From NCBI RefSeq assembly GCF_002104475.1, contig NZ_NBOF01000001.1, forward strand, positions 62,001-126,000: a stretch of DNA of 64,000 nt. Reading direction: 5' to 3'. Source of the DNA: Cognaticolwellia mytili (lineage in GTDB: Bacteria; Pseudomonadota; Gammaproteobacteria; Enterobacterales; Alteromonadaceae). How positions within the stretch are numbered: position 1 is the stretch's first letter; every line of letters starts with the position of its first letter. Shown here in pieces: positions 10,501-47,490 of the stretch. The notes below the pieces were generated by a model. The model saw only the letters and a list, made by a program, of their open reading frames with translations, did not search any database and was not told the DNA's origin. A program made the position numbers and the translations under genes.

Positions 10501-12345
10501 CTAAAAGCCGCACTGTTTACCCTGGTTTTTCTCTTTTAACCAAGTGTGTAAAGGTGCGAAGTAATCGGTAATTGCGGTTGCATTCATTTGCTCGCTACCA
10601 GTCAATACCTTATACGCTTCTTGCCATGGTTTACTAGAACCCATCTCAAGCACTGTATTTAACGCTTTACCTGCATCTTTATTGTTATAGATAGAACAGC
10701 GATGGATTGGATCGGTGTTACCTGATATTTCACATAGAGCTTTATGAAATTCAAACTGCTGGATGTGAGCTAAGAAGTAACGAGAATAAGGTACACCACC
10801 TGGTACGTGGTACTTGGCACCTGGATCAAATGCATCGGAATCACGGTCAATAGGAGCTGCTACTCCTTGATATTTTTCACGTAATTCCCACCAAGCAGTG
10901 TTGTAATTTTCAGGTGTAACTTCACCTGAATATACCTTCCAACGCCATTGGTCAACCATTAAACCAAATGGAATAAAGGCTATTTTTTCTAATGCCATTT
11001 TCATCAATAAACCAATATCTTTTGATTCATCTGGAATAGTGTCAATTAAGCCAATTTCTTTTAAGTATTTTGGTGTCACTGAAAGAGCAATGGTGTCACC
11101 AATGGCTTCATGGAAGCCATCATTGGCGCTGTTTTGATAATATACTGGCTGATTTTGGTAAGCACGTTGATAAAAATTGTGCCCTAATTCGTGATGAATA
11201 ACAGAAAATTCTTCACCTGTTTTTTGGATACACATTTTAATACGAATATCATCTTTAGCATCTAGATCCCAAGCTGACGCATGACAAACTACATCACGAT
11301 CCGCTGGTTTGGTGAATAATGAACGCTGCCAGAAAGTTTCAGGCAATGCATCAAAACCAAGTGAGGTGAAGAAAGTTTCTGCGCCTTTAACCATTTTGAT
11401 TTCGTCATAGTTATTTGCAGCAAGCTGCTCAGTAACATCATAGCCTGGATCTGCATTTTCAGGTGCAACTAAGTCATAAATGTTACCCCATGACTGCGCC
11501 CACATATTACCTAGTAAATGTGCTGGAATAGGCTGGTCTTGTGGTACTTTATCTTCGCCGTAAGTTTCACCTAGTTCAGAACGCACGTAACAATGTAAGT
11601 CATCATATAGTGGCTTTACTTGTCCCCATAAGCGGTCAAGTTCTTTAGCAAACTCATCAGCAGGCATATCGTAATTTGAACGCCACATTGCGCCTAGATC
11701 TTTGTAACCTAAACCTTGAGCACCCTCGTTACCAAGCTCTGCTTGACGAATATACAATGGTTTCATGTCTGGACTGATTGTTCTCCAACCTTGCCACATT
11801 TCTAATAACTCATTGTAGTCACGAGAGCTTGCCATTTTGGCTGTCATTTGACCGAGGCTTAAAGTTTCACCTGCTTTTGTAGTGTAAGAGCCTTTACCGT
11901 ACATGCTACCTAGTTCAGCACCTATCTTTGCTAATTCAGCTGATTTTACTGAGTCTTGTGGGGCTGGCATTACTAAACTTTGTTTCAAAATATTTAGCTT
12001 GCGGCGTTGATCTGCGCTGACTTCAACGTGATCAAATTTTGCAGCAGCCATCGCAAAACGAACACCCGCTTCTGTTGATTTTTGATCGGCAGCAGCAGCT
12101 AGCGAAGAAGTATCTTCAGTAATGAAGTTGGAATTAATCCAAGCGGCACGACTGCCTTCAAGGTTCAACTGTACGAGTTCTTTTTCTGTACTTGCTAAAA
12201 ACTTTTCAGCATCTTTTGCCGTAAGCACTTGGCTTACGCTTTTTACTGCTGCAGTTTCTGTTGCAACTTTGCTATCACCATTACAAGCAGCCAAGCTTGC
12301 AGCAACTAAAATAGCTGCAGTGGTTAGTTTAAATGTTGGTTTCAT
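10501..12345 (-). CDS. M2 family peptidyl-dipeptidase lipoprotein (ACE-like)
   Basis: A 614-residue zinc metallopeptidase of family M2, the angiotensin-converting-enzyme family, which removes C-terminal dipeptides. The active site is explicit: HELGH at residues 385-389 (two zinc His and the catalytic Glu) and HEAIGD with the third zinc ligand at Glu413. Family features KYHVPGGVPYSRYFLAHI also appear near the C-terminus. The N-terminus is a lipoprotein signal with lipobox LAAC at Cys21; Asn at +2 gives no inner-membrane retention signal, so an outer-membrane anchor facing the periplasm is expected. The likely role is degradation of peptides imported through the outer membrane. It is monocistronic, with a strong terminator behind and the small-RNA array upstream on the same strand. 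Confidence 0.93.
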   Translation of the reverse strand: MKPTFKLTTAAILVAASLAACNGDSKVATETAAVKSVSQVLTAKDAEKFLASTEKELVQLNLEGSRAAWINSNFITEDTSSLAAAADQKSTEAGVRFAMAAAKFDHVEVSADQRRKLNILKQSLVMPAPQDSVKSAELAKIGAELGSMYGKGSYTTKAGETLSLGQMTAKMASSRDYNELLEMWQGWRTISPDMKPLYIRQAELGNEGAQGLGYKDLGAMWRSNYDMPADEFAKELDRLWGQVKPLYDDLHCYVRSELGETYGEDKVPQDQPIPAHLLGNMWAQSWGNIYDLVAPENADPGYDVTEQLAANNYDEIKMVKGAETFFTSLGFDALPETFWQRSLFTKPADRDVVCHASAWDLDAKDDIRIKMCIQKTGEEFSVIHHELGHNFYQRAYQNQPVYYQNSANDGFHEAIGDTIALSVTPKYLKEIGLIDTIPDESKDIGLLMKMALEKIAFIPFGLMVDQWRWKVYSGEVTPENYNTAWWELREKYQGVAAPIDRDSDAFDPGAKYHVPGGVPYSRYFLAHIQQFEFHKALCEISGNTDPIHRCSIYNNKDAGKALNTVLEMGSSKPWQEAYKVLTGSEQMNATAITDYFAPLHTWLKEKNQGKQCGF

Positions 12346-12492
12346 AATTATCCGTTATTTTTTGTTAGCGCTTAGGCAGCGCGTTAGTTAACGTAAGAAT
12401 AAGCTCGTGGCTATAGTAGAATGAGATTGAATGGTTAGCAATAGTATTGCATTTTATCGTACTAAATTTGGTAGACTTGATAAATTTTGTAT

Positions 12493-12576
12493 AAAAAAAA
12501 GCTCAGCGAAAGAGGGCTGAGCTGCTATATAAAATATACTAGGGAAAGTATGAAATCTGCTTTTCAAACGAAAAGC
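12493..12576 (-). ncRNA. putative small RNA, copy A of the tandem array
   Basis: Read on the minus strand: TATTAT at 12583-12588 as a -10 element, then about 84 nt ending in a perfect 8-bp terminator stem (AGCTCAGC at 12500-12507 against GCTGAGCT at 12516-12523) followed by eight T. Near the 5' end an 8-bp stem (TGCTTTTC/GAAAAGCA) closes a 4-base loop. The unpaired middle carries CTTTCCCTAGTATA, shared with copies B and C. This is the most diverged copy. The transcript start is estimated, not observed. Confidence 0.6.
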
Positions 12577-12665
12577 AAAATAATAATATCGGTAATTGCT
12601 GTTTTTAACTGTGACCTTCCTGTAACAGTTTGTAATCAACTAGCGTAACAAGTGAATTTTTGAAC

Positions 12666-12753
12666 AAAAAAAAGCTCAACCAATAAGTTGAGCTAAAAAT
12701 ACACTAGGGAGAGTAAAATAAAATCACTATTCAAACGTTTGGGTTTAAAAGTT
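12666..12753 (-). ncRNA. putative small RNA, copy B of the tandem array
   Basis: Minus strand: TATTAT at 12760-12765, then about 88 nt ending in the terminator stem AGCTCAAC (12673-12680) against GTTGAGCT (12687-12694) and eight T. It carries the conserved unpaired core ACTCTCCCTAGTGTA and the palindrome CAAACGTTTG. The upstream block containing ACAGTAAAAAACACAC is shared with copy C, so promoter and transcript were duplicated together. Ends are estimates. Confidence 0.62.
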
Positions 12754-12874
12754 GAAATAATAATATAGGTTAAGTGTGTTTTTTACTGTGTTAATTAGGT
12801 AAAAGTTTGTAAAGAGCCCCGCTAATTTAAAATGTTGGGTATGAAATCAAATTGGTGAAAGAAGAATTTTAGAG

Positions 12875-12962
12875 AAAAAAAAGCTCAACCAATAAGTTGA
12901 GCTAAAAGTATACTAGGGAGAGTAAACAAAATCACTATTCAAACGTTTGGGGTTTAAAAGCT
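12875..12962 (-). ncRNA. putative small RNA, copy C of the tandem array
   Basis: Minus strand: TATTAT at 12969-12974, then about 88 nt ending in the same terminator stem as copy B (12882-12889 against 12896-12903) and eight T. The core is ACTCTCCCTAGTATA and the palindrome CAAACGTTTG is kept. Nearly identical to copy B over the whole unit, including upstream sequence. Its promoter lies close to the divergent promoter of the PsrA-like gene. Confidence 0.62.
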
Positions 12963-13023
12963 AAGATAATAATATCGACTAAGTGTGTTTTTTACTGTGT
13001 TAATTAAGTAAAAAATTGTAATG

Positions 13024-13070
13024 TATAATTCTCATAACAGATGGTTGCGTTATTTTAAACGCTTGTTTAA
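13024..13070 (+). promoter_or_regulatory. promoter and PsrA-type operator of the TetR gene
   Basis: TATAAT at 13024-13029 preceded by TG is an extended -10. About 25 bases downstream, TTAAAC-GCTT-GTTTAA (13055-13070) is a perfect 6-bp dyad that fits the published PsrA half-site pattern AAAC-N4-GTTT. A repressor bound here would block its own transcription, as PsrA does in Pseudomonas. Confidence 0.6.
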
Positions 13071-13119
13071 ACTGACTGTATTAATTTCATAAACATTCGA
13101 TATATGGCGCTATAGACCT

Positions 13120-13746
13120 ATGAGCACAAAGAACAAAATATTAGATGCCGCAGAGAACCTGTTTGCTGATAAAGGTTTTAATGGAACCTCTCTACGTGAA
13201 ATCACTAGTCAAGCGGAAGTAAACCTAGCTGCGGTAAATTACCACTTTGGCTCGAAAAAAGAATTAATTAAAGCCGTAATGTCGCGCTACATGAATGAGT
13301 TATCGCCTCGCCTAGAGAGTGCCTTAATAGATGTTTGCCGTAATGATGAACTTAGTTTAGTCGATGTTTTTTCTGCTTTTATTGAGCCACTGTTATCGCT
13401 AAATGATTTTAAAGATAACGGAACCAGTAACTTTCTGCAATTATTGGGGCGAGGTTACACTGATAGCCAAGGTTTCTTGCGTTGGTTTTTAACCACGCAA
13501 TATCCGGGTGTTATTGATAACTTTGTGCTAGCTGTTCAAAAAGCTTACCCGGAATTAGGTGCAGAAGAAATGTTCTGGCGTCTGCATTTTACTATGGGAA
13601 CTGTGGTATTTACGATGTCTTCAAGTGATGCCTTAATTGATATTGCCAAAAGTGATTTTGAACGCAGCTTACAAATATCAGATGTTATACGTAATGTTAT
13701 TCCATATGTCGCCGCTGGTGTTGGCGCTCCTATGCCGCAACTTTAA
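13120..13746 (+). CDS. psrA: TetR family regulator, PsrA-like
   Basis: A 208-residue TetR-type repressor. The N-terminal helix-turn-helix (about 1-50) contains ILDAAENLFADKGF and VNLAAVNYHFGSKKELI, closely matching PsrA of Pseudomonas and Shewanella. The C-terminal ligand domain (about 80-200) is of the same subfamily. PsrA senses long-chain fatty acids or acyl-CoA and controls beta-oxidation genes. A perfect AAAC-N4-GTTT dyad lies about 50 bases upstream of the start, consistent with autorepression. It lies upstream of nagZ on the same strand. FadR is encoded 6 kb away, so this organism appears to use both fatty-acid regulators. The TetR assignment is firm; the PsrA identity is likely. Confidence 0.78.
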   Translation: MSTKNKILDAAENLFADKGFNGTSLREITSQAEVNLAAVNYHFGSKKELIKAVMSRYMNELSPRLESALIDVCRNDELSLVDVFSAFIEPLLSLNDFKDNGTSNFLQLLGRGYTDSQGFLRWFLTTQYPGVIDNFVLAVQKAYPELGAEEMFWRLHFTMGTVVFTMSSSDALIDIAKSDFERSLQISDVIRNVIPYVAAGVGAPMPQL

Positions 13747-46923: not shown

Positions 46924-47490
46924 ATGGGAGATGTAATTTTTTTTAACAACCAAGAAGAGTTTAGTCATTGGTTAGAAGAAAACTCTGAAGCTAGTGAGCT
47001 TTGGGTAGGATATTTAAAGAAAAGTACAGGGCGAGCAAACCTGACTTGGTCTTCATCTGTCGATGTTGCTCTTTGCTTTGGTTGGGTTGACGGCATACGA
47101 AAAACCATCGATGAACAAAGCTATAAGATTCGCTTTACTCCGCGTAAATTAAAAAGTGTTTGGAGTGCTGTGAACGTAAATAAGGTTAAAACGCTCATAC
47201 CGCTTGGCAAGATGAGACCAGCAGGCATACACGTATTTAATAATAGAAGTGATGAAAAAGGTTATTCCTCTGAGGATAGAAAAGTCCCACTTGCTAGTGA
47301 GTACGAAGCGCAAATCAAGGTTAATCAGTCCGCATGGCAATTCTTCACTAATTTAGCACCGTCTTATAAAAGAGACTCTATCTGGTGGGTAATGAGTGCC
47401 AAAAAAGAAGAAACACAATTAAGAAGACTTAGTATATTGATCGCGTCATCAGAGGTTGGGTTAAAAATCCCCACCTTGCGAAAAAAATAA
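46924..47490 (+). CDS. YdeI/OmpD-associated family protein
   Basis: A 188-residue soluble protein of the YdeI/OmdA family. Family features are an N-terminal FFNNQEEFSHWLEENSEASELWVGYLKKSTG, then WSSSVDVALCFGWVDGIRKTID and RFTPRKLKSVWSAVNVNKV, and a C-terminal part with WWVMSAKKEETQLRRL. Relatives were linked to protection against antimicrobial compounds and to stress, but the biochemical role is not established. A GGAG site precedes the ATG. It stands alone between two long non-coding regions; the flanking sequence suggests this stretch is less conserved than the core genome. Confidence 0.85.
   Translation: MGDVIFFNNQEEFSHWLEENSEASELWVGYLKKSTGRANLTWSSSVDVALCFGWVDGIRKTIDEQSYKIRFTPRKLKSVWSAVNVNKVKTLIPLGKMRPAGIHVFNNRSDEKGYSSEDRKVPLASEYEAQIKVNQSAWQFFTNLAPSYKRDSIWWVMSAKKEETQLRRLSILIASSEVGLKIPTLRKK

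Follow-up and report, generated by a model that had tools for sequence, protein, structure and literature searches.

A 64,000-nucleotide stretch of the Cognaticolwellia mytili genome, referred to below as the window, carries on its minus strand (12493-13021) three imperfect tandem units, A, B and C. With an estimated probability of about 0.72, we read them as three sibling genes of trans-acting small RNAs (sRNAs), each with its own promoter and terminator and each with a core that would pair with mRNA Shine-Dalgarno sequences to block translation, perhaps under OmpR-type activation. On sequence grounds, the predicted sRNAs represent a conserved and apparently uncatalogued family of siblings, putatively anti-Shine-Dalgarno and built like NmsR and LhrC. 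The original prediction of tandem small-RNA genes at this site is supported by unit anatomy, distribution and conservation of the core.

Organization of the array

The array lies between psrA, whose best named relatives are found in Colwellia and Cognaticolwellia, and the M2-peptidase gene (Table 1). The units start about 165-177 and 209 nt apart and share one order of elements: the promoter box comes first, then the TATTAT -10 element, a hairpin at the 5' end, the UC-rich core, a short linker rich in A and U, and finally the terminator with its eight T; the predicted unit body measures ~80-90 nt. The box follows the general pattern TTACA-N5-TTAC-N9-ACAGT(T/A)AAAAACA in all three units, and the core TACT(T/C)TCCCTAGT is likewise common to them. 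Thus, the anatomy proposed earlier (three imperfect minus-strand copies in tandem, each with a TATTAT -10 and its own terminator with eight T) is found in every unit, all three terminators being recovered by a terminator scan; the proposed extent, 12490..13000, places the array properly but ends too early, as the box of unit C reaches 13021.

Table 1. Features of the sRNA array and its neighboring genes (positions within the window)
Feature	Position	Strand	Basis
Unit A promoter box, TTACA-N5-TTAC-N9-ACAGTTAAAAACA	12600..12635	-	exact pattern match; mean identity 85% between 11 species
Unit A -10 element TATTAT	12580..12585	-	sequence and promoter/terminator scan
Predicted sRNA A	12493..12574	-	start estimated, 6-7 nt after -10; end, T run
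Core of A, TTCATACTTTCCCTAGTATA; AGGGAAAGTATGAA within reverse complement	12535..12554	-	
Terminator stem-loop of A, then T run to 12493	12500..12523	-	terminator scan
Unit B promoter box	12777..12812	-	exact pattern match
Unit B -10 element TATTAT	12757..12762	-	sequence
Predicted sRNA B	12666..12751	-	start estimated
Core of B, TACTCTCCCTAGTGT	12701..12715	-	
Terminator stem-loop of B, then T run to 12666	12673..12694	-	terminator scan
Unit C promoter box	12986..13021	-	exact pattern match
Unit C -10 element TATTAT	12966..12971	-	sequence
Predicted sRNA C	12875..12960	-	start estimated
Core of C, TACTCTCCCTAGTAT	12910..12924	-	
Terminator stem-loop of C, then T run to 12875	12882..12903	-	terminator scan
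psrA, TetR-family repressor, divergent from array	13120..13746	+	NCBIfam NF053516, 310.4 bits (cutoff 300)
M2 (angiotensin-converting-enzyme-like) peptidase gene, downstream of array	10501..12345	-	Pfam PF01401, 745.5 bits

Scanning of the region 11800-13700 yielded six terminator-like sites, the three expected ones among them; shuffled sequence gave 1.6 on average. Promoter-like sites in the same region were not above chance (3 found vs. 5.1 expected), and unit A alone of the three units passed the sigma-70 scan; both results follow from the poor -35 hexamers.

Upstream of psrA, at ~13043-13076, the window contains a palindrome-like sequence, GTTTAAACAAGCGTTTAAAATAACG, with similar sequences at other psrA loci inspected; we take it to be a putative PsrA autoregulatory site.

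Folding and sequence conservation

All three units fold better than their shuffled versions (z-scores: A, -6.4; B, -3.7; C, -3.9). The predicted fold of copy A comprises hairpin 1, a small second hairpin with a UUCCCU loop, and the terminator; hairpin 2 is weak in B, and placement of the CCC core in the loop of a small hairpin is clear in A, weak in C and poor in B. Across the wider family, the part preceding the terminator has only a modest folding advantage over shuffles (mean z of -1.2 for 81 units, 16 of them above 0). The compensatory change proposed for the terminator stem between copy A and copies B/C is real, from AGCTCAGC/GCTGAGCT to AGCTCAAC/GTTGAGCT with pairing kept, and amounts to a single G-C to A-U change.

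The conservation of the array is mosaic in character. Along the copy-A lineage (11 species), the mean pairwise identity is 99% for the 20-nt core (partly by construction, because these units were picked by the core itself), 90% for the terminator, 87% for the linker and 85% for the box; hairpin 1 stands at 63%, the interval from the box to the start at 61%, the downstream flank at 56% and the upstream flank at 34%, and psrA fourfold sites in the 11 species give 48%. A set of 16 genomes picked by the box agrees, the core being identical in 15 of them and differing by one base in the other. The expectation that an unpaired core would be the most conserved part is therefore borne out with respect to its conservation, but the core is not simply unpaired, being partly paired or in a loop in the predicted fold.

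Hairpin 1 is paired in 86.6% of cells despite its variation, compared to 22-55% when the partners are slid. Ten cells are changed on both sides, and this count and the covariation score were each reached by only 1 of 500 shuffles, in statistics that ignore the relatedness of the sequences; the number of pairs with changes on both sides (three) is not above shuffles, 360 of 500 having reached it. Covariation is uninformative on hairpin 2, which hardly varies.

Distribution and copy number

In its own genome, the unit occurs solely in the psrA/M2 array: the box has three exact matches there, the next best places carry 2 and 3 mismatches, and a reversed control gave no match. Of the 16 other genomes in the genus, 15 matched a 556-base query covering the array; the one that did not is 66% complete. 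Counted within the fetched stretches, 30 units are present in 17 genomes (from the same-genus loci, the window itself and a single genome from outside the genus), with ten genomes carrying one unit, three carrying two, two (the present one included) carrying three, and two carrying four. In another genus, genome G019 has four tandem units flanked by genes for an S9-like peptidase and an outer-membrane-efflux-like protein (both named by eye), and neither psrA nor the M2 gene was matched in its fetched locus.

A box-plus-terminator scan of 79 named psrA loci, eight of which lie outside the Colwellia group or in other genera (e.g., Idiomarina, Shewanella, a Rhizobiaceae MAG), revealed 61 units, every one on the opposite strand to psrA, distributed over 40 loci (26 loci with one unit, 8 with two, 5 with three and 1 with four); a control with permuted box letters gave 0 units in each of 20 scans. 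The same scan, which misses some visible units (e.g., at L059 and L064), found none at the other 39 loci, many Colwellia and Thalassotalea loci among them. Pooling of the non-redundant units yielded 83 distinct ones, 76 of which match a C-rich-core pattern before the terminator (a loose pattern used without a control); the psrA-locus set and the genome sample overlap (e.g., L033 and G015).

A copy-A covariance model, applied to 147 genomes of the family, gave 10 matches, comprising all 6 same-genus genomes of the sample and four others; of these four, the one in G043 is a unit that the box pattern recovered too, and the remaining three resemble terminator hits or chance. The box pattern was the more sensitive of the two across these genomes. 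With up to 2 mismatches allowed, it occurred in 25 of the 147 at 53 places (5 reversed-control hits); this count includes chance hits, which several of the single matches with 2 mismatches resemble. In a sample of the order, it matched 7 of 345 genomes: 6 of the 29 that belong to the family and, with 2 mismatches, 1 of the 316 that do not. The reversed control gave 4 hits.

At L203 (G127), CTCTCCCTAG is followed by a terminator but has no promoter box, and may be a boxless relative or chance. Upstream of psrA at L047, L051, L053, L062 and L070, which lack a box unit, there is a different terminator-like element composed of a (U)UCCC stretch, a stem, a loop with (A/G)CCTGATCTGTCAATC and a T run (in the L053 variant, the loop holds CAGATCTGTCAATC); it had no Rfam match at the gathering cutoff and may represent another sRNA family. 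At L050, L053 and L103, also upstream of psrA, TTTCATGAAT stands shortly before a terminator and contains the complement of a start codon.

Core variants

The core of copy A, 5'-UUCAUACUUUCCCU-3', is perfectly complementary to AGGGAAAGUAUGAA, which comprises a Shine-Dalgarno sequence and a start codon. In B, C and the Thalassotalea-type units it reads CUCUCCCU, which is complementary to AGGGAGAG. Many Colwellia units combine ACUCCCU with an additional UUUCAUGUUGUAGUUU ahead of the terminator, and at L073, L076 and L225 the UUUCAUGUUGUAGUUU module is present with CUCCC absent. Units driven by the box at some 20 Colwellia loci (e.g., L081, L085, L088-L096) close with TTTCATGTTGTAGTTT and a terminator of the form GCTCATTC...GAATGAGC, with up to four near-identical copies of such units at L089.

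Since the core is complementary to ribosome-binding sites, the RNAs probably pair with such sites and block translation, and would thus probably switch off other genes. A more speculative scenario, which we put forward only tentatively and consider rather doubtful as it stands, concerns the psrA-divergent site throughout the Colwellia group: one dedicated regulator box may drive sRNA genes that undergo duplication and loss and swap pairing modules. These modules would be UUAUACUCUCCCU for Thalassotalea-type units, a core directed at a ribosome-binding site together with its start codon for Cognaticolwellia copy A, and an extra UUUCAUGUUGUAGUUU for Colwellia units (some without the CUCCC core); a fixed signal would in this way be re-wired to new targets in evolution.

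Candidate activator

Within the box, successive ACA triplets are spaced by 10, 11 and 10 bp, and the box and the expected -35 position overlap. Direct repeats so placed would suit tandem sites of an activator of the OmpR/PhoB family. The genome encodes OmpR itself (81% identical to that of E. coli, 448.8 bits vs. a cutoff of 331), as well as many relatives. When offsets were allowed, the box showed weak similarity to six E. coli OmpR sites and two consensus sequences, with 25 and 89 of 1000 permutations as the best outcomes, and because of this weakness we treat OmpR as a candidate activator. An earlier comparison that looked strong (15 and 0 of 2000 permutations) was set aside, as its sites and register had been chosen by hand and the free-offset repeat with six sites was weak.

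Candidate targets

Searches for the complement of the core showed no enrichment in the C. mytili genome (35 matches vs. 30 in reversed controls). An AUG in register with an open frame accompanies 5 of the 31 matches examined, in genes for alpha-amylase-like, glutathione-peroxidase-like, arsenate reductase/low-molecular-weight phosphatase-like (by eye), small unnamed and M1-like aminopeptidase proteins; three candidate target proteins scored below curated cutoffs in NCBIfam. Within the genus, 16 of 35 matches are the sRNA genes themselves, and the remaining 19 compare to 18 in reversed controls. The M1-like gene recurs in two genomes, and two others share a gene that looks cytochrome c-like by eye, which is what an ordinary good ribosome-binding site might give.

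Against the 47 open frames of the window, the copy-A core produced no outlier (best value -13.7, equal to the average of shuffled cores, -13.7). The B/C core produced one start-region outlier, 46924-47490 (+), at -18.2 kcal/mol compared to a mean best of -14.8 for 20 shuffled cores. Its start region, GGAGAGUAAA, would pair through 10 bases with the B/C core, and the encoded 188-aa protein had no match in NCBIfam; we regard this gene as a possible target of copies B and C. Overall, the candidate start regions are not separable from ordinary good ribosome-binding sites.

Discussion

Gene anatomy, conservation, copy-number variation and complementarity of the core to a ribosome-binding site are direct readings of the sequence, and the mechanism that we propose builds on them. 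An OmpR-type response regulator, bound to two tandem direct-repeat sites over a weak -35, probably activates all copies together, so that the copies would add dose. Each RNA would display its UC-rich core in a small loop and the adjoining strand, and pairing of the core with the Shine-Dalgarno sequence of several mRNAs (in the case of copy A, with the start codon too) would block translation. Copy A would differ in part from B and C in its pairing site. Hfq, which is encoded in the genome, probably assists the pairing. Here we infer transcription, translational repression, the activator class and Hfq dependence from sequence features.

Several other readings of the array were weighed against this one. 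The M2-peptidase start lies on the same strand, 148 nt downstream of the point where the last terminator ends, and the M2 gene adjoins the array at many loci (matched in 17 of 28 box loci), as would be expected if the units were a cis-acting leader or attenuator array of that gene, operating by successive termination rather than in trans. Each unit has, however, its own box and -10, and the best conserved element is the core rather than the terminator. In G019, moreover, the four units lie between other genes. That box and core move as one speaks against a cis leader for M2; we consider this reading very unlikely. A repeat without function, or a selfish one spreading in intergenic DNA, would account for imperfect copies in AT-rich intergenic DNA and for copy numbers that vary between genomes, but it is hard to reconcile with the absence of copies elsewhere in the genome, with the same position and orientation at 40 of 79 psrA loci, or with a mosaic conservation in which the 99% core does not evolve at the rate of the flanks, and we give it almost no credence. 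The dispersed form of such a repeat was rejected, the unit and the exact box being confined to the array in their own genome. Likewise, the outcome named at the outset as contrary to an sRNA (a dispersed repeat with neither covariation nor a conserved core) differs from what was found: an array-only unit, a core that is its best conserved part, and a hairpin 1 with pairing kept.

Another reading is that the RNAs chiefly titrate another sRNA or a protein, as a sponge or decoy, instead of pairing with ribosome-binding sites of mRNAs. Multi-copy genes suit titration, the copy number varies from 1 to 4, and the target scans with the core are not enriched over controls. Nevertheless, a near-invariant core complementary to a complete ribosome-binding site with its start codon speaks against a sponge, and the UCCC core has no GGA motif, which CsrA decoys use. 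Overall, we find a sponge improbable and favor sibling trans-acting sRNAs that would pair with Shine-Dalgarno sequences. If this is true, the array adds an uncatalogued sRNA family for cold-ocean bacteria with almost no sRNA work in the literature searched, and its variation among genomes (1 to 4 copies, at least 2 pairing cores and one common promoter box) forms a natural series in which to study sibling-sRNA duplication, dose and target change.

Comparison with known sRNA families

No Rfam 15 family matched at the gathering cutoff in the window, in 8 related loci or in 12 further related ones, in line with the first impression that no known family could be recognized; families appearing at lax thresholds were rejected, with scores well below their cutoffs. 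By these tests none of the known sRNAs compared below is homologous to the units. A literature search, with subscription papers, preprints and supplements outside its scope, returned no title or abstract describing such an sRNA family, and the terms 'psrA' and 'tandem' are absent from the main text of a Shewanella sRNA survey with Colwellia as comparison. The likeness to the Betaproteobacteria toxic small RNA (RF02278) consists of a UC-rich stretch followed by a strong terminator; its covariance model scored 25.9 bits vs. a cutoff of 50, with all eight pairs of the first hairpin non-standard in the alignment.

OmrA/OmrB are encoded by tandem genes of 88 and 82 nt under EnvZ/OmpR control, with 5' 21 nt and 3' 35 nt common to both RNAs (PMC4211561). 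Tandem layout and similar length are shared with the present units, OmpR control being a feature of Omr; unlike Omr, however, the units have in common an internal UC-rich core and not the 5' and 3' ends. Compared by eye, the OmrA/B sequences bear no likeness to the units, from which near-identical ends of the Omr type are absent, and neither OmrA nor OmrB had an Rfam match in the window.

NmsRA and NmsRB of Neisseria (NgncR_162/163) are two copies lying in tandem in one intergenic region, with three stem-loops, under stringent-response control, with a UC-rich single strand and a UC-rich loop of the second stem-loop complementary to target Shine-Dalgarno sequences (PMC5362039). The NmsR covariance model (RF02877) can be aligned with unit C over its full length, with the two UCUCC regions opposite each other, but the score of 27.5 bits is below the gathering score of 52, so the unit falls outside the family. 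The likeness (tandem siblings, three stem-loops and a UC-rich anti-Shine-Dalgarno loop, with hairpin 2 weak in B) is one of design, not descent, and two copies under the stringent response contrast with 1-4 box-driven units here. We know of no shared promoter box for NmsR.

LhrC1-5 of Listeria comprise five near-identical copies of 111-114 nt that all depend on one two-component system, LisRK, and contact their target through CU-rich (UCCC) motifs in loops and single strands, Hfq being dispensable for lapB (PMC4132741). LhrC differs from the present units in its Gram-positive host and longer RNA (111-114 nt), with no Rfam match to the units, and resembles them in being multicopy and in having UCCC-type pairing motifs in loop or single strand. 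The predicted genes of the array, several homologous and free-standing units each with a promoter and a terminator, have the makeup of multicopy sibling sRNAs.
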